DNA from: an uncultured Bacteroidota bacterium
Lineage (GTDB): Bacteria; Bacteroidota; Bacteroidia; Bacteroidales; FEN-979
Length of the DNA stretch: 53,942 nucleotides
NCBI GenBank assembly: GCA_937862805.1
Contig: CALMDO010000250.1
Location: 1 to 53,942 of the forward strand
Direction: 5' to 3'
Under the pieces are notes generated by a model that was not told where the DNA came from, ran no database searches, and worked only from the letters and a program-made list of their open reading frames with translations. The position numbers and the translations under genes are program-made. This document shows, one piece after another, positions 31,499 to 40,291 of this stretch; position 1 is the stretch's first letter, and the number at the start of each line of letters is the position of its first letter.

Positions 31499-33046
31499 TC
31501 AGGGTTCCCGAACGGGGGCCGGATCACTGACCCACACAAAGATATCGGCTTTCTTCAAAGGCCTTTTTTCTTCCAGCCATTTGAAGTTTCTCAAGCGTAA
31601 TTCCTGCTTTGGTAATTGCTTTTCAGGATAGAGATGCGCCTCAGGTTTATCGATATAGGTAATGGTGCTGAGTTCATTGTTCTCCAAGAAGATCAACATC
31701 TCTGCCGATCTGGCCTTGTTGATCCCGATCAGCGTTTTGTCCTCTTCCCGTGCATAATAGATGGTCTCGGCATTCCCGATTACTCTCACTTTGTACAATT
31801 GGTTGTCGCGGAAACGGGCCAACAGGTTCCTCCCTTTGATCTGGTTGAAACGCACGGAATCGTCCTTTGAAATGATGAAAGCCGAACCAAACATCTTCAG
31901 AGAATCAGCTTGCCCGTCCCGGAGCTTCAATTGAATAGAATCGGCAGTGAGCTGGTTGGGACCCGACCACAAGACAGGCTCCTTGTACATCATCAGGGCA
32001 GAATCAGCAGTATGAAAGACCAATGAATCACTCATTCCCTGAATATCTTGTCGGAAAAACCTTACTTTATGATAACAATGAATGTCCCGGATGTGCTGGC
32101 TGGTATCAAAAGTGGCCCAAACCGTGTCAGCGTGCATGAAAAGTGAATCTTTTTTCTCCACCATGGTCACCAGTGCGCTGTCGGTCATGAAAGCGAACCC
32201 GGCCTGCCGTTTGATCTCCCCGTACTCTCCGGTGAGCAGGATGTTCTGAACGGTATCGATTAGCAGAGCATCTTGGAAAACCTGTCCGAACCCGTTCTTT
32301 CGTTCATAATAAAGACTGTCGCCTGTGAGCATGGCAGCCCCGTGGTAAATTTTTGAATGCTCGCGGAAGCGGGCCAGATCCAAACGGGTATCATACCATC
32401 CGTTTTCGCAATAAATTGAATCTTGTTTGTCGTTGGAGGTGATATTGGAAGGACCATAAAAATAAGCTACTTCAGTCAGCGTATTGTACATTAAGGTGTC
32501 TGAATGCATGGCGTAATCCGGGTGAGTCAGCAACACCTTGTCTTTGAAAAAAAATGTTTTTTTGTCGGTGTAATAATAGCCGTGAAGACTGACCAGGACA
32601 TTTTTATCGTTCACGATCTTTCCCCAGTAATCGTAACGGGCGATCTGTGTATTTCTGTCATAAACCAACGTGTCGGTAGTGAGGATGGTCTGGTTATCGA
32701 TCAGCCGGACATTGCTGTTGGCCCACGCTATTTTCGTATTCCCGTCATAACGGAGGGAGTCGGCGTACAAGTTGAGGGTATCTGAGAGTTTTACGCGCAC
32801 GTTCCCAAAGGTGGCAACGCGGTTATCGGCTTCAAACAGGTAAGCACTGTCGCAAAAAAGATAAGCTGAATCGTGGCTGAAGATCACATTTCCGATCAAC
32901 CGCTGGACATTTTGCCGGATCTCCTTGTTGTAAGTCCACGAATCAGCTTTTTCAAGGATGATCCTGGCAGGAGCAGGCTCCTGGGACAAACCCGGTAAAT
33001 AAAATATCAGAAAAACAGGCAACAAACACAACGGTTTGTAATTCAT
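31499..33046 (-). CDS. OstA/LptA-like periplasmic protein
   Basis: A 515-residue exported protein of the OstA/LptA-like family found in Bacteroidota, probably part of the LPS-transport bridge or an LptD-related factor. The signal peptide runs to about residue 20 (ending GLSQ). The body is a series of beta-strand repeats with Asp-Ser-Ala/Leu-Tyr (SAYLFCDSAYLFEADNRV, SLRYDGNTKI, TLVYDRNTQI, DSLYYERKN, ADSIQLKLRDGQ), which is the OstA fold signature. The frame is open to 33178 but the ATG at 33046 gives the signal peptide directly and follows the TATCTTTG box at 33064. It converges on the MlaD-like gene (35-base gap) and diverges from gatE. Confidence 0.8.
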   Translation of the reverse strand: MNYKPLCLLPVFLIFYLPGLSQEPAPARIILEKADSWTYNKEIRQNVQRLIGNVIFSHDSAYLFCDSAYLFEADNRVATFGNVRVKLSDTLNLYADSLRYDGNTKIAWANSNVRLIDNQTILTTDTLVYDRNTQIARYDYWGKIVNDKNVLVSLHGYYYTDKKTFFFKDKVLLTHPDYAMHSDTLMYNTLTEVAYFYGPSNITSNDKQDSIYCENGWYDTRLDLARFREHSKIYHGAAMLTGDSLYYERKNGFGQVFQDALLIDTVQNILLTGEYGEIKRQAGFAFMTDSALVTMVEKKDSLFMHADTVWATFDTSQHIRDIHCYHKVRFFRQDIQGMSDSLVFHTADSALMMYKEPVLWSGPNQLTADSIQLKLRDGQADSLKMFGSAFIISKDDSVRFNQIKGRNLLARFRDNQLYKVRVIGNAETIYYAREEDKTLIGINKARSAEMLIFLENNELSTITYIDKPEAHLYPEKQLPKQELRLRNFKWLEEKRPLKKADIFVWVSDPAPVREP

Positions 33047-33063
33047 ATCCTTCAGTTTTGCTG

Positions 33064-33071
33064 CAAAGATA
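33064..33071 (-). promoter_or_regulatory. -7 promoter box for the OstA/LptA-like gene
   Basis: Minus-strand TATCTTTG, exact TAnnTTTG match, leader about 12 bases to the ATG at 33046. It supports the shorter start. Confidence 0.6.
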
Positions 33072-33168
33072 GGAAATTGAGAGTTACCAAAATTATTGAA
33101 CAATCGGCACCCTGTTATCATCAAAATGTCTAATTTTACCCCCTCGTAAATTGATCCTACCCGATTCC

Positions 33169-35160
33169 ATGAAACCACCCTTTGACCCCCGGCGAAATTA
33201 TGCCGAAACCCAGCAAAAAACAGGATATGTCAAACGTAAGGAAGCAACCCAGGCCGATTACGACCGGATTGGCTTTATGTCAGGACTGGAAGTCCACCAA
33301 CAACTGAGAACCCGCAAAAAACTTTTTTGTCGTTGTCCTTCCGGAATTTACCAGAAAGAAGACGACTTCGATGCCGAACTGGTAAGGCACATGCGCCCCA
33401 CACTCAGTGAGTTGGGTGAGTATGACGGAACGGCCCTGATGGAATTCCGCACCCGGAAAAATATCATCTACCGGATCAAAAACGAAACGGCCTGCACCTA
33501 TGAAGTGGATGATACCCCGCCATTCCCGCTGAATATGGAGGCGCTGGACATATCGATAGAGATTGCTCTTTTATCAAAGATGAAGGTCGTTGGAGAGGTT
33601 CACATTACCCGGAAACAGTACCTCGACGGATCCATACCTACCGGGTTCCAACGTACCGCTATCGTTGGAGTAGAAGGTGAAATCGAACTGAAAAACAAAA
33701 AGGTACGATTGATCCAGCTCAGTCTCGAAGAGGATTCGTGCCGGGAAGTCTCCGATATTGGTCACTGGCGTGTTTACCGGACCGACCGGCTGGGGATGCC
33801 CCTGATTGAGACGGTCACCTATCCCGATTTCAAGAATCCCGACGAGGTCAGAGAAGGAGCCGATTACATCCGCTTTCTCAACCGCAGTACGGGCAAGGTG
33901 CTGACCGGTGTCGGATCCACCCGTGCCGACGTCAACGTGAGCTGCAGAGGCGGTACCCGTGTTGAGATCAAAGGAGTTTCCCATACCGGCTGGATGCCTG
34001 AACTGACCCACAATGAAGTATTCCGCCAATGGGCCTTGCTGGCCGTGAAGGAAACACTCAATGCCAGGGTCAAGGACCCGGCAGCCTGGAAAATTTCCTG
34101 GAAAGAGCTGCGGCCCAGGGATTTCAAACTTGAAAACCTGGGAATGCCCAAAAACAGTGACTTTAAAGTATTAGGCGTAAATCTGCCTGAATTCAAAGGC
34201 ATCCTGTCGCATTTTACCCAACCGGGAAAAATGTTCGGCGACGAATTTACTGACCGGCTGAAAGTCATTGCCTGCCTCGAGAAACCCAACATGGTCCACT
34301 CCGAAATGTTTGACAACGTTTTGGGCGATAAAGCTTGGGCACGCATTCGCACCTTGTTGGAAAGCGGTGACAACGACGCTCAGATTATTTTCTGGGGCCC
34401 GGCCGATGACATCAAGACAGCCCTCGAAACGATCGAAGAAAGAGGGAAAATGGCCTTTGCCGGGGTCCCCAACGAGACCCGCAAATCACTCCCCGACGGC
34501 ACCACCATCTTTGAAAGAGTCCTCCCGGGAGCCGACCGGATGTACCCCGATACAGATTCCGCACCCATCCCCCTTGAAGATACAACCATTGATGAAGCGC
34601 TCAACCGCCTTCCCCAATTGGTATCCTCACGCATCCGCTCTCTCATCGAATGGCAGGTACCGGAAGATACCCATACCTATATCCTGAAAAACAACCTTGT
34701 CCCGTTGCTGGAACAAGCACAGGCAGAACTGGGTATTGCACCCCGGTTTACCGCCACCCTGCTGGCCCATACACTGAAACACATCCAGGGACAGTATCCT
34801 GCATTGCCCGATTTTTCTTACGGAAAAGTACTTGAAATGCTCCGGTACCTGAAAGAAAAGCAAATGGATCCCGGCATTGCAAAAAAAATGTTGCTGCAAA
34901 TTTACCAACATCCCAAGATGGATTTTGAGTCTGTTCTTACTACATTGAATTTCAAATATATGTCAAAATCTGAGATTTTTGGGAAGATCCCCTTTCTTGT
35001 CAAGAAATACCAGGAGATACGCACCTCCGGAGAGGAGACAGCAGGACTGCGATGGATCATGGGAAACCTGAACAAAGTAGCCACCGGCAACATCTCCCTT
35101 AAAGAACTCAGTCATCAGATCACCAGTTTTAATCCTGCAACGAATCAACCCACACAATGA
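33169..35160 (+). CDS. gatE: Glu-tRNA(Gln) amidotransferase subunit E (GatE, archaeal type)
   Basis: Kinase/transamidase subunit that phosphorylates Glu on misacylated Glu-tRNA(Gln) and converts it to Gln with ammonia from GatD. The 663-residue product has the GatB/E cradle (GLEVHQQLRTRKKLFCRCP at about 39-57, and the SLEEDSCRE, DRLGMPLIET, GVGSTRADVNVS segments). Between about 330 and 460 lies the insertion domain (VLGVNLPEFKGIL, FWGPADDIKTAL, GADRMYPDTDSAPI) similar to that of bacterial AspRS, which distinguishes GatE from GatB. The C-terminus is a helical YqeY-like tail. The ATG at 33169 is chosen over the TTG at 33151. The stop overlaps the gatD start by four bases (ATGA), as expected for a stoichiometric complex. 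GatDE is classically archaeal, so its presence here is notable; see findings. Confidence 0.93.
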   Translation: MKPPFDPRRNYAETQQKTGYVKRKEATQADYDRIGFMSGLEVHQQLRTRKKLFCRCPSGIYQKEDDFDAELVRHMRPTLSELGEYDGTALMEFRTRKNIIYRIKNETACTYEVDDTPPFPLNMEALDISIEIALLSKMKVVGEVHITRKQYLDGSIPTGFQRTAIVGVEGEIELKNKKVRLIQLSLEEDSCREVSDIGHWRVYRTDRLGMPLIETVTYPDFKNPDEVREGADYIRFLNRSTGKVLTGVGSTRADVNVSCRGGTRVEIKGVSHTGWMPELTHNEVFRQWALLAVKETLNARVKDPAAWKISWKELRPRDFKLENLGMPKNSDFKVLGVNLPEFKGILSHFTQPGKMFGDEFTDRLKVIACLEKPNMVHSEMFDNVLGDKAWARIRTLLESGDNDAQIIFWGPADDIKTALETIEERGKMAFAGVPNETRKSLPDGTTIFERVLPGADRMYPDTDSAPIPLEDTTIDEALNRLPQLVSSRIRSLIEWQVPEDTHTYILKNNLVPLLEQAQAELGIAPRFTATLLAHTLKHIQGQYPALPDFSYGKVLEMLRYLKEKQMDPGIAKKMLLQIYQHPKMDFESVLTTLNFKYMSKSEIFGKIPFLVKKYQEIRTSGEETAGLRWIMGNLNKVATGNISLKELSHQITSFNPATNQPTQ

Positions 35161-36542
35161 GTGAAGATATTTTCCAGGGCTATAAAGGCCGAGCGCTCGA
35201 AATACTGCAAAAATACAATGCCCGGGTTTGGGCGAAAGTCCGGGTAGATTCAACCAGGGGTACTTTTGAAGGAACCATCCTGCCCCGTGCCGAGAACACA
35301 GACGATAAACACCTGGTACTGAAAATATTTACCGGGTATAACATCGGTGTGGATATCTCAGGAATCACCATGATCACCGAATTGGGATACAAGAAAGCAG
35401 TTTACAAAATCCCCGAAAAGGAGTTTCCCTATTCCAAAGAAAAACCAAACGTCAAATTGTTAGGGACAGGGGGTACGATAGCTTCCCGGCTCGATTACCG
35501 CACCGGCGCCGTCATTCCTGCTTTCTCGCCAGGCGAACTGTACGGAGCGGTTCCGGAATTGGCCGATATCTGCAACCTCACAACAGAGAAACTCTTCGCT
35601 GTTTTCAGTGAGAATATGGGGCCCGAACAGTACAAAAAACTGGCGGTAGCCATCGGCCATGAGATTGAAAAAGGGGTCGATGGGATCATCATTGGTCATG
35701 GCACCGATACCCTTCACTACACCTCTGCTGCCCTCACTTTCATGGTACAAAACTCCCCGGTTCCCATTGTTCTGGTGGGTTCCCAGCGCTCGAGCGACCG
35801 TCCGAGCTCCGATGCTGCCCTTAACCTGATGCACGCAGCCACCGCCGCGGCCCACGGTGATATAGCCGAAGTGATGGTTTGCATGTTCGGCCCGACCTCT
35901 GATGAATACGGGTTCCTTCATGGCGGAACCAGGGTTCGCAAAATGCACTCATCCTACCGTTCCACCTTCAGGACCATCGGCGATACCCCGTTGGCCACAG
36001 TCACCCGAAATGGAGTAACCCCGATAAAAAAAGAGTACAACCGCCGCAGGAAAGATCGAAACGTCACCATCCTACCCTATTACGACGAAAGGGTGACCAT
36101 GATCTACTATTATACCAATATGAAACCCGATGTAATCGATGCGTTGGTAGATGCAGGTTACAAAGGGATCATCATCATCGGCACAGGACTGGGTCACGTC
36201 AATAAACCCATCTATCCTGCCATCGAAAGAGCCATCGCTAAAGGAGTCGCTATCTACATGACAGTACAAACCTTGTGGGGTTATGTTCACATGTTTGTTT
36301 ACGATACGGGTCGTGACCTGATGGCCAAGGGAATCATCCCCGCAGAAAATATGCTGCCGGAAACCGCTTTTATCAAACTGAGTTGGGCCCTCGGACAAAC
36401 CAGCGACCTTGCTGAGGTGAAGCGGATCATGCTCACACCGATCAATAACGAAATCACCCCCCGCGAACCATACAACGGGTACCTTATTTACCAGGGCGGC
36501 GTACCGGAAGTGGAGGACTTTATCCGTCAATTCCACAAATAG
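35157..36542 (+). CDS. gatD: Glu-tRNA(Gln) amidotransferase subunit D (GatD, asparaginase type)
   Basis: Releases ammonia from glutamine or asparagine for GatE. The 461-residue product begins with the Tudor-like small barrel domain of GatD (residues about 12-80, WAKVRVDSTRGTFEGTI), which separates it from plain asparaginases. The L-asparaginase fold follows, with the two threonine motifs LLGTGGTIAS (Thr107) and HGTDT (Thr183, Asp184) and a lysine in RKMHSSYR (Lys262) completing the catalytic set. QRSSDRPSSDAALNL is the GatD-type signature. Directly coupled to gatE by the 4-base overlap. No nearby sign of transfer such as repeats or an integrase. Confidence 0.93.
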   Translation: MSEDIFQGYKGRALEILQKYNARVWAKVRVDSTRGTFEGTILPRAENTDDKHLVLKIFTGYNIGVDISGITMITELGYKKAVYKIPEKEFPYSKEKPNVKLLGTGGTIASRLDYRTGAVIPAFSPGELYGAVPELADICNLTTEKLFAVFSENMGPEQYKKLAVAIGHEIEKGVDGIIIGHGTDTLHYTSAALTFMVQNSPVPIVLVGSQRSSDRPSSDAALNLMHAATAAAHGDIAEVMVCMFGPTSDEYGFLHGGTRVRKMHSSYRSTFRTIGDTPLATVTRNGVTPIKKEYNRRRKDRNVTILPYYDERVTMIYYYTNMKPDVIDALVDAGYKGIIIIGTGLGHVNKPIYPAIERAIAKGVAIYMTVQTLWGYVHMFVYDTGRDLMAKGIIPAENMLPETAFIKLSWALGQTSDLAEVKRIMLTPINNEITPREPYNGYLIYQGGVPEVEDFIRQFHK

Positions 36543-36790: not shown

Positions 36791-38044
36791 ATGAAAAAAG
36801 TCCTTTACTTATTTATCTCATTGTTAATGGTTAGCATTGCATCCCGTTCACAGGATCTGGAATGTTTTGTGCTTTCTCCGCCGGAGATCATCCTTCAAAA
36901 AGTGACCAAGATTTCCATCCTTGATTTCACAGGTGAAAAGGGGAAACAATTATCGGAACTGATGGTCTCAGAGCTGTTTAGTGAGAACCGGGGCATCAAA
37001 ACCCTTGGAGGAGGCCTTTTCCAGTCCACCCGTGAGGGCAAAACCTTTCAGAAAGGGGGCCGGACCAATATTTATACCGTGGTCGAGCGTTCGCAACTTG
37101 AGAGCGTGCTGGCAGAACAAAACCTGAGCAACACCGGTATTGTCGACGATGCCCAGGCGGCTTCCATCGGACAGGTGCTGGGGATCGATGCCGTCATCCT
37201 GGGATCTGTTTCCTATTCCTACAAGGATGAACCTTCTCAAAACCCCATGGTGGATCTCACGGGAAAAACCTATACGCAGTATTGCACCAAAAGAACGGTG
37301 ACCGCCGAAGCCCGTATGAAGATTCTGGATGTTACTACCGGGAAAATCATCGGAACCAAAGATAAACGATCGTCAACATCCGAAAGCAAATGTGATGATA
37401 AACGCAGCGGGCTGACCCCTGTAAGCGCCATGGCGGACCAGTGTATGAAGGACCTGGCTTTCCAACTGGTCAACTATTTTACCCCTTATTTCACGTATTC
37501 AAAATTTGAATTTGAAAAGGTGAAGAACAAGGATTTCAAAGACAAGGCCAAAGAGGCCAAAGAGCATATCGAAAACGGTGACCTTTCAAAAGCCTTTCCG
37601 ATTTTCAAAGCCATCTATGACGCGGATCCATACAACGCCTCGGCTGCCAAAAATTTAGGCTGTCTGTACGACATCGTCGGGAATTACGAAAAGGCACGTG
37701 AATATTACCTTATTGCAGCAGAGATCGATCCTTCGGAATACAATGATGAAGTTAAAAAGGTCGAGAGAGAAATCGAGTATGATCAGGTACTTAAGTCCAT
37801 CGGTGTAGTCATTGAAAAACAGGATTACGCCGAACGCTCCGATGCTTTGGCCGAAAAGGTTAAGACACGCGGGAATAAGAATGATCGCTACGAAGTAAAA
37901 AAGGAAGCGGATGCGGGTTCCGAGACCTTGATTAAAATCCCCGGCGATACCGAATTTACCTTGATCGAAACAAAAGGGGAGTGGTACCTGATAAAACTGT
38001 TAGGAGGGAAACAAGGTTATATCAGTAAAGAGTTCGTGCGATGA
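36791..38044 (+). CDS. CsgG-like / TPR / SH3 exported protein
   Basis: A 417-residue exported protein with a signal peptide of about 20 residues (ending RSQ). Residues about 35-235 match the CsgG/HfaB-like fold that builds outer-membrane export pores or sensor caps (KISILDFTGEKGKQLSELMVSELF, VVERSQLESVLAEQN, ILGIDAVILGSVSYSY-like, then AEARMKILDVTTGKIIG). Two TPR-like helix pairs follow (about 255-325, AFPIFKAIYDADPYNASAAKNLG). The C-terminus is an SH3-like barrel (about 365-417, ETLIKIPGDTEFTLIETKGEWYLIKL with GYISKEFV). No lipobox is seen, so it is not a CsgG lipoprotein in the strict sense. Its stop overlaps the caspase gene start by four bases, implying a common function. Exact role unknown. 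Confidence 0.75.
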   Translation: MKKVLYLFISLLMVSIASRSQDLECFVLSPPEIILQKVTKISILDFTGEKGKQLSELMVSELFSENRGIKTLGGGLFQSTREGKTFQKGGRTNIYTVVERSQLESVLAEQNLSNTGIVDDAQAASIGQVLGIDAVILGSVSYSYKDEPSQNPMVDLTGKTYTQYCTKRTVTAEARMKILDVTTGKIIGTKDKRSSTSESKCDDKRSGLTPVSAMADQCMKDLAFQLVNYFTPYFTYSKFEFEKVKNKDFKDKAKEAKEHIENGDLSKAFPIFKAIYDADPYNASAAKNLGCLYDIVGNYEKAREYYLIAAEIDPSEYNDEVKKVEREIEYDQVLKSIGVVIEKQDYAERSDALAEKVKTRGNKNDRYEVKKEADAGSETLIKIPGDTEFTLIETKGEWYLIKLLGGKQGYISKEFVR

Positions 38045-39321
38045 AAAGATTACTCTTCCTTCTGCTTCTTCTTATTCCACCCGGGGCTATGGCCCAGGTT
38101 AACGTGCTGATCCTTACCCGTGAAAATGTCTTTTCCGGTCGCGGCTCACTGAACGTGATCTCCACCCGCCTCCAAAATGCCCTGATGAACAACGGGTATC
38201 GCTGCCTGGCGCTGAAAGATTCAGCCGGGAGCGACTTTCGGGTCACGGTCAACGCTAACTCCAGGCAGGGAAACACGGTCAGGAACTTCTGTTTTGCGTA
38301 TGTTGATGCCACCCTGACCATCACCGGAAAGGAAAACCTTTCCTACACTTGTGACTACCTCAATGTCAAAGGAGGCAGTACCGATTATACAAGCGCCAAC
38401 CTCAAGGCTTATGCTGCCCTGGCCACCATGGTGACCGACTCGACCCTGAAGTTCTTCGACAAACGGGCTGTCACACCCGAAACAGAACCACCGGTTGCGA
38501 AAACCACCCCTAAACCTGCCTCGGATGTCGATCTTAATATTCCGGTCACAAGCAGGGTCAATGCCGATACTTACGTGGTAGCGATAGGAAATGAAGATTA
38601 CAGCAGTTATCAAACCGGGCTCAACAATGAATCCAATGTAGAAGGAGCCGTGAACGATGCCACCATCTTCAGCCGGTATTGTATTCAGACCCTGGGTGTC
38701 CCTGAAAAAAATGTTGTCCTCAGGACCAATGCCACTCTGGGACAGATGCGCCAGGCGATCATGAAACTGGTGACCCTCACCCAACTTAAAGAGGGGAAAG
38801 CCTCCCTGATTTTTTACTATTCGGGCCATGGCCTTCCCGATGAGGAGACGCATGATCCGTATCTCATCCCGGTCGATATCAGCGGATCGGACGTGAAATC
38901 GGCCATCAGCCTGGAGGGTTTGTTCAAAGATTTAACCAGGTACCCTGCCAAAAAAGTGACCGTGATCCTGGATGCCTGTTTCAGCGGAGGCGCCAGAAAC
39001 CAAGGGCTTATTGCCTTAAAAGGAGTGAAAGTCAAACCCAAAGAATCTACCCTGACGGGTAACCTGGTTGTCATGAGTTCCAGCTCGGCCGACGAAAGCT
39101 CCACGGTTTACAAGGAGAAGGGTCACGGCATGTTCACCTATTTCCTGCTTAAAAAATTGCAGGAAACCAAAGGAAACGTGTCGTACAAGAGTCTGTTCGA
39201 TGACATATCTACTAAAGTGCGCGTGGAAAGCGTGACCATCAACAATAAAAATCAAACACCGCAGATCAGCGGCAGTCCTGAAGTACAGCAATCATGGGAG
39301 AGCTGGCGGTTTCTTGATTGA
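38041..39321 (+). CDS. Exported caspase-fold (C14) peptidase
   Basis: A 426-residue protein with a signal peptide (residues 1-19, ending AMAQ). An N-terminal domain (about 20-140) has the length and fold-like pattern of CsgG-related or periplasmic beta domains. After a Pro-rich linker comes the caspase domain (about 170-420): start DTYVVAIGNEDYSSY, catalytic His263 in YYSGHGLPD, catalytic Cys313 in LDACFSGG, and a C-terminal GHGMFTYFLL segment. The pattern is of the bacterial metacaspase/orthocaspase type, which usually cleaves after Arg/Lys. It is secreted, so its targets should be periplasmic or surface proteins. Overlap with the CsgG-like gene by 4 bases. Converges on the DUF4384 gene with a 19-base gap. 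Confidence 0.87.
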   Translation: MKRLLFLLLLLIPPGAMAQVNVLILTRENVFSGRGSLNVISTRLQNALMNNGYRCLALKDSAGSDFRVTVNANSRQGNTVRNFCFAYVDATLTITGKENLSYTCDYLNVKGGSTDYTSANLKAYAALATMVTDSTLKFFDKRAVTPETEPPVAKTTPKPASDVDLNIPVTSRVNADTYVVAIGNEDYSSYQTGLNNESNVEGAVNDATIFSRYCIQTLGVPEKNVVLRTNATLGQMRQAIMKLVTLTQLKEGKASLIFYYSGHGLPDEETHDPYLIPVDISGSDVKSAISLEGLFKDLTRYPAKKVTVILDACFSGGARNQGLIALKGVKVKPKESTLTGNLVVMSSSSADESSTVYKEKGHGMFTYFLLKKLQETKGNVSYKSLFDDISTKVRVESVTINNKNQTPQISGSPEVQQSWESWRFLD

Positions 39322-39340
39322 AACCGATTTGTCAGACCGG

Positions 39341-40291
39341 CTACCGCGTGATGGTAATATCCACCGTCTTTACGTGGATATCCCGGTTGTGGGTGCGGTT
39401 TTTGATAAGCCATTTCTGAAAATCCTCCGATAGTAAAGCCCGGGGTAGCGTCCAGCCGGTCTTTTGCTCCTGTTCAGTCAAGGTGGTGCCCGCCGTCGTT
39501 TTATCCATCCCCGGTTTGGGAATCGGAGTTTTCGAGAAAATGACGAAAAGCCGGTTTTGATCCTGAATGGATTCACTGGTCATTACATACTCATCCACCG
39601 TGTAATTCCCCGGAATGGGAGCCAACCCGGGTACAGAAGAGAAAAAAATGTAAAGCTGATCGGCTTCCACCGGAACCCCGTCTTCCATTTTCCCTGCCAT
39701 CGAAGCATAAGGAAGCAACCGCTGGCTTGTAGTACCATCATCCAGGAAGATGGTCAGGTAACCGCTGACAGGGGTCTTGAAGTAAAGGTACAACGGATCA
39801 TTATTCTTAAAGTCGGTGGTTTTACATTTCGGATCAGTACAACCCAGCGGGTATGCGTCAAATTCCACGGCGGATTCGGCGATTGCCCTTGCCCGGATGG
39901 TCACATCACAGGCTAAATCTCTGATTACCGTCTTTTTGCCATCAATTTCCTTCGATCCTGGAATTTCACTGAAATGCTTCTTCACCACCTCGATCACTTC
40001 CCCTTTAACCATTGTATTGGCGATCATGTTGAAGGTGGTGGTGGTCTCTACCTTTTGACCGGTTGACATATTCTTCAGGTAGGTGGAATTGCCCTGGATC
40101 ACAGCCCGGCCAAAAGCCTGTTCCAAAGCATCGATCACAGCCCGTTCTTCCGCTTCTTTTTCAACCTGTTGCCTCGACTTTGAATCGGGAAACTCAACCT
40201 GGGAACGACCCTCCGCCCGGACGATCTGGTCATCCTGTCCCCAAAGGAGAAAAGGGAACCCTAAGCAAAAAAGAAAAAGCGAAATTTTCAT
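39341..40291 (-). CDS. LPP20-like / DUF4384 exported protein
   Basis: A 316-residue exported protein: signal peptide of about 18 residues (ending LWG), an LPP20/flagellar-assembly-like N-terminal domain (about 25-130, including RQQVEKEAEERAVIDALEQAFG), and a C-terminal DUF4384-type domain (about 150-270, LYLYFKTPVSGYLTIFLDDG). A Cys pair (CTDPKC) is placed for a disulfide between the domains. DUF4384 proteins often occur with caspase-type peptidases in bacteria, which matches this neighbour pair, but here the gene is on the opposite strand with its own promoter box at 40317-40324. The function is unknown; envelope complex component is a guess. Confidence 0.7.
   Translation of the reverse strand: MKISLFLFCLGFPFLLWGQDDQIVRAEGRSQVEFPDSKSRQQVEKEAEERAVIDALEQAFGRAVIQGNSTYLKNMSTGQKVETTTTFNMIANTMVKGEVIEVVKKHFSEIPGSKEIDGKKTVIRDLACDVTIRARAIAESAVEFDAYPLGCTDPKCKTTDFKNNDPLYLYFKTPVSGYLTIFLDDGTTSQRLLPYASMAGKMEDGVPVEADQLYIFFSSVPGLAPIPGNYTVDEYVMTSESIQDQNRLFVIFSKTPIPKPGMDKTTAGTTLTEQEQKTGWTLPRALLSEDFQKWLIKNRTHNRDIHVKTVDITITR

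Follow-up and report, generated by a model that had tools for sequence, protein, structure and literature searches.

The window, by which we mean the whole stretch of 53,942 nucleotides that was analyzed, is one contig of a genome of 2.82 Mb, assembled in 329 contigs and 91.8% complete; its gene content points to Bacteroidota, order Bacteroidales. On its plus strand it carries two genes, gatE and gatD, assigned to the two subunits of a Glu-tRNA(Gln) amidotransferase. The pair, its domains and the gene upstream of it are laid out as follows:

31499..33178, minus strand: divergent upstream neighbor, OstA/LptA-like by eye, outside GatDE
33169..35160, plus strand: gatE, Glu-tRNA(Gln) amidotransferase subunit E (kinase/transamidase and tRNA-binding subunit), 663 aa
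34078..34464, plus strand: AspRS-like insertion domain of GatE, residues ~304–432
34609..35157, plus strand: C-terminal helical and YqeY-like tail of GatE, residues ~481–663, helices in the structure model
35157..36542, plus strand: gatD, amidase (asparaginase-like) subunit D, 461 aa
35229..35375, plus strand: GatD_N (Tudor/SH3-like barrel) domain of GatD, residues 25–73, PF18195

The ATG of gatD and the stop codon of gatE share 4 bases, in keeping with a preliminary description of this DNA that had reported an overlapping pair. On the 3′ side of gatD, positions 36791–40291 possibly encode a caspase-like peptidase (38041–39321) adjoining a repeat protein and a secreted protein, all three named by eye.

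Judged by the sequence comparisons and structure models made, the window pair is a true GatDE and, as the preliminary description held, neither GatB nor a plain asparaginase. Window GatE passes both NF003107 (469 against a cut-off of 456) and TIGR00134 (421 against 319.55); all six GatB models tried on it stay far under their cut-offs, the best reaching 117.9 bits against 338. Window GatD likewise lies above its curated NCBIfam cut-off, and it combines an asparaginase core, also above cut-off, with a GatD_N barrel (PF18195, 46.4 bits against 25.7), the structure model having five strands across residues 26–78. The AspRS-like insertion domain is present in GatE, the predicted folds of both proteins resemble archaeal GatDE, and their best PDB matches are archaeal GatDE; for the GatE tail, the family profile reaches YqeY chains weakly, at E 0.009–0.02. 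Phylogeny, which had been proposed as a check, placed the pair outside GatB and outside asparaginase: five GatB sequences form an outgroup to all GatE, and two asparaginases to all GatD, with an SH-aLRT of 100 in each case. The GatE residues H43, E187, E188, D206 and E214 and the T/T/D/K set of GatD, which we take to be catalytic, are conserved from archaea to these bacteria. Between the window and the relative G100, dN is 0.056 for GatD, 0.20 for GatE and 0.25–0.26 for two neighbor genes; synonymous sites were saturated in this comparison, and we therefore give no dN/dS value.

Full-length homology of both subunits ties the bacterial pair to the archaeal GatDE of known structure (PDB 1zq1 from Pyrococcus abyssi, and 2d6f with tRNA(Gln), presumably from Methanothermobacter), and the likeness extends to the AspRS-like insertion, the N-terminal barrel joined to an asparaginase core, and the catalytic residues. 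The bacterial pair differs from them in its reversed gene order, the GlnRS alongside it, the U1–A72 pair of the host tRNA-Gln, the strong divergence of the insertion and tail, and its position in a separate clade. With bacterial GatCAB the resemblance lies in the catalytic cradle and tail common to GatB and GatE, GatB having no AspRS-like insertion. Type I L-asparaginase has the core fold in common with GatD, and the T/T/D/K set is that of this enzyme, but GatD has the added N-terminal barrel and groups with archaeal GatD.

The gene order is regular on both sides of the comparison. In the window and at 40 of 43 loci of the order, gatD lies 3′ of gatE on the same strand, no more than 100 bases away at 32 of the 40; the same holds for 28 of 29 loci from another class, 24 of them inside that distance. 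The four bacterial loci without GatD are short sequence stretches or contig ends, and G107 has gatE with no gatD in the 4.8 kb downstream. Archaeal loci have the reverse arrangement where it could be seen, GatD directly preceding gatE in all 45 loci with a visible GatD among the best 80 of 568 relatives.

An archaeal-type pair in a draft of 329 contigs might owe its presence to contamination or to a chimeric contig in which archaeal DNA was joined to bacterial DNA, but its surroundings and distribution argue otherwise. An OstA-like gene adjoins gatE in six relatives from six families (G100, G119, G013, G048, G040 and G050; in G048 the two are about 1 kb apart), MlaD follows past it in four of the six, and the GC3 of gatED, 0.57–0.59, matches the 0.53–0.62 of six neighbor genes. 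Of 149 genomes of the order, 63 have gatE above the TIGR00134 cut-off; the count includes the genome of the window and scores two carriers of cut-off fragments of gatE (G047, G095) as negative. Of 395 genomes sampled from the phylum, 30 have it: the one under study and 29 from beyond the window's class, the one-contig genomes G272, G280 and G441 included. The bacterial GatE clade is separate from the sampled archaea. With the same upstream neighbor in relatives and such a spread, a chimera is therefore very unlikely, to the point that we give it almost no weight. The preliminary description had considered the pair settled in the genome, and the conserved neighbor and the spread in the lineage bear it out; of the archaeal–bacterial chimera that it had named as a refutation, no joint was seen.

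Within the order, the presence of gatE is patchy: at least 27 changes are required on the GluRS tree (133 genomes, the two fragment carriers left out), and at least three genera (g3, g34, g36) mix genomes with and without it. Across 38 genomes, GatE and GluRS distances correlate with a Spearman coefficient of 0.29, a value reached in 11 of 2000 permutations, and the two trees have 8 of 35 splits in common, a partial agreement that fits neither pure descent nor free transfer. G304 (locus L130), outside the window's class, carries gatED of the window-order type, unlike four further members of its family, whose gatED is of a type of their own; unless the G304 draft is contaminated, this favors exchange within the phylum. 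Plasmid records gave 23 matches, one of them an archaeal GatE-like protein (Natrinema) and the others partial, many annotated as gatB.

The deeper origin of the pair was approached with quick trees, their branch support given as SH-aLRT, and with archaeal sequences taken from the same best 80 of 568 relatives; the consensus query leaned toward archaea, all 80 are archaeal by title, none was recognized as a DPANN member, and other bacterial phyla lay outside the sample. A GatE tree of 45 of these 80 loci, 16 of the 29 other-class loci (G304 included) and 14 order loci (the window included) puts archaea and the phylum on opposite sides of one branch (SH-aLRT 100). In a GatB-rooted tree of 27 archaea, 10 other-class and 9 order loci with the five GatB sequences as outgroup, a sixth GatB locus (L243) being excluded for its short frame, the bacterial sequences form the sister group of the 27 sampled archaea taken together (SH-aLRT 98). 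The GatD tree, rooted with the two asparaginases, also recovers the bacterial clade with a support of 100, but nests it weakly (80–82) in archaea. As far as these sequences go, the phylum's GatDE is of one old, common lineage, and a transfer between archaea and bacteria, in either direction, is plausible. The more specific proposal of the preliminary description, transfer from an archaeal donor, gains little from trees that set the GatE clade apart from the 27 archaea sampled and nest GatD only weakly. A GatDE ancestral to bacteria, or very old in them, with no transfer from a living archaeal group would suit the position of the GatE clade beside all 27 archaea, its long stem and the gene order opposite to that of the 45 archaeal loci; we nevertheless consider it somewhat unlikely, since the GatD tree places the clade within archaea, if weakly, GatB is a far outgroup inviting long-branch artefacts, and the trees, with the sampling just described, are quick ones that carry neither bootstrap nor AU tests.

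How the pair relates to the ordinary bacterial route has to be read from relatives: neither GluRS nor GlnRS was found in a search of the own assembly, and the pathway thus cannot be read from the own genome. In at least 14 relatives the listed coordinates put gltX and glnS within ~10 kb of each other, so that a single gap may account for both absences. Relatives do show GatE beside GlnRS, as the preliminary description had allowed in mentioning redundancy with that enzyme. Of the 149 genomes of the order, 133 have a GlnRS above cut-off, and it is equally common in those with GatE (56 of 63) and without it (77 of 86; Fisher p = 1). Among the 29 GatE-positive genomes of the other class, 26 have GlnRS and 22 have GatB, and the one-contig G272 and G280 encode GatE, GlnRS and GatB together. 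The gene glnS directly adjoins gatED at 2 of 53 loci scanned, a rate biased by our choice of the G039 stretch in the knowledge of this: G039 (L146) has a co-directed glnS-gatE-gatD run, and in G162 (L129) glnS is convergent with gatED. Nine genomes (G100, of the window's own family, and G016, G030, G035, G036, G049, G051, G082 and G084), some of them called 95–100% complete, have GlnRS but no GluRS above cut-off; these absences are likely, though unproved, assembly gaps.

GatDE could alternatively be the main source of Gln-tRNA, with a nondiscriminating GluRS and a GlnRS that is dispensable and lost where missing. No GlnRS above cut-off was found in 7 of the 63 GatE-positive genomes of the order or in three of the 29 of the other class (G398, G434, G461), and G434 and G461, 99% complete in 40 and 20 contigs, hold GatE, GatB and a single GluRS well within a contig. 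The equal frequency of GlnRS with and without GatE tells against such a role, however, and as a replacement for GlnRS GatDE was rejected in the order. G434 and G461 have GatB, so GatCAB could serve them; in G075, 1.1 kb separates gltX from the end of its contig; and a clean GlnRS loss in G034, set against G148 of the same genus, did not hold up, as a search of the G034 assembly did not find parA, beside glnS in G148, either, which resembles a gap. We regard GatDE as the main route as improbable. The GluRS type was approached through an Arg at the position of Thermus thermophilus Arg358, which we take to mark a discriminating GluRS. It is present in all 35 sequences looked at, including those of two genomes without a GlnRS found, and an invariant marker kept even there cannot tell the type of GluRS; we rejected it as a test, and on the nondiscriminating GluRS envisaged in the preliminary description it decides nothing.

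In archaeal GatE, the AspRS-like insertion and the C-terminal tail contact the tRNA, and it is these parts that have diverged, the tail as much as the insertion: identity to two archaeal GatE is 18–23% in the insertion and 15–23% in the tail, against 40–44% in the catalytic parts, as would be expected if the tRNA-binding parts had adapted to another tRNA. The one tRNA-Gln found in the own genome has U1–A72 and not the archaeal A1–U72, and U1–A72 was present in all 46 tRNA-Gln rows read (L254 and L282 among them being one gene), in GatE-positive and GatE-negative genomes alike. The A1–U72 pair in tRNA(Gln) characterizes archaeal hosts and does not define the GatDE enzyme family. According to the passage on recognition in a recent review, archaeal GatDE reads A1:U72 and the D-loop (PMC9499178), so that in these bacteria either its recognition has changed or its substrate differs. 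In the 42 loci read, which were unevenly drawn, no tRNA-Gln special to GatE-positive genomes was recognized. Several GatE-positive genomes have a second tRNA-Gln form of ~74 bases, with a longer D-loop by eye (L284–L287, L291, L292), and a similar form with a CTG anticodon is present in the GatE-negative G064.

The fast change of the presumed tRNA-contacting parts and the first base pair unlike the archaeal one could also mean that the enzyme has given up making Gln-tRNA(Gln) in favor of a different substrate, such as Asp-tRNA(Asn) or a special tRNA, or of a regulatory function. The same parts would, however, also be altered in adapting to the tRNA(Gln) of bacteria, the catalytic residues of both subunits are retained, and the known GatDE substrate, in the account of the same review, is Glu-tRNA(Gln) (PMC9499178); we judge a change of use to be an outside chance.

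The reading that we prefer, with a probability of about 0.6, is that the pair is a true GatDE Glu-tRNA(Gln) amidotransferase that provides a second or clean-up route beside GlnRS. Building on the observed family, fold, conserved catalytic residues, gene pairing, spread and coexistence with GlnRS in relatives, we infer the activity, its donors, tRNA(Gln) as the substrate and the auxiliary role. GatD would free ammonia from glutamine or asparagine, and GatE, with ATP, would activate the Glu of a misacylated Glu-tRNA(Gln) and amidate it to give Gln-tRNA(Gln). In these bacteria the enzyme would thus work alongside GlnRS, not replacing it, as a second source of Gln-tRNA(Gln), and would also clean up Glu-tRNA(Gln) misformed by GluRS; the supply of Glu-tRNA(Gln) is not evident because GluRS retains its discriminating-type Arg. 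An auxiliary or clean-up route beside GlnRS would be the most economical role, and the pair would be old in the lineage, patchily held and sometimes exchanged. A bolder version, which we offer tentatively and hold to be less probable than its contrary, is that a deep bacterial branch kept GatDE, reordered it to gatE-gatD and retuned it to the tRNA(Gln) of bacteria, where it would serve as a permanent second route; G272 and G280, with GlnRS, the GatB of GatCAB and GatDE, would then possibly have three parallel ways to Gln-tRNA(Gln).

Bdellovibrio, Deinococcus, Thermus and others offer a partial parallel, as they retain GatCAB although they have AsnRS and GlnRS (PMC4206432): there too an amidotransferase is kept despite a direct synthetase, but the case concerns tRNA(Asn) and GatCAB, and ours GatDE and presumably tRNA(Gln). 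A 2022 review confines GatDE today to archaea (PMC9499178), a 2021 review restricts it to archaea without AsnRS (PMC8007984), and a further text names GatCAB as the bacterial enzyme and GatDE as the archaeal one (PMC3532385); one review uses an archaea-only GatDE in its arguments on LUCA and on the reasons that kept archaea from adopting GlnRS (PMC9499178, PMC8007984). In the open-access literature searched, outside which most subscription papers lie, we recognized no report of a bacterial GatDE, and NCBIfam-based database annotation may already name these proteins. With GatDE common in one bacterial phylum, and beside GlnRS, the claimed split between archaea and bacteria fails. The coexistence of both enzymes in bacterial cells is therefore directly testable, as is the role of GatDE in these bacteria, usually beside the ordinary bacterial route, and in these bacterial hosts the way in which GatDE recognizes tRNA seems to have changed.

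One genomic correlate of the pair is a gene for a glutamine synthetase of ~500 aa, present in 59 of 63 GatE-positive and 39 of 86 GatE-negative genomes of the order (p 2e-10, kinship ignored). With kinship controlled on the GluRS tree (133 genomes), supported branches yield 11 independent pairs, of which on average 2.0 change in the same direction and 0.5 in the opposite one (median p 0.625). These are too few to decide, so that the link stays a lead, unproved and perhaps due to kinship alone. The idea that genomes have GatDE because they lack glutamine synthetase was not supported, 144 of the 149 genomes of the order having a Gln-synt_C match.
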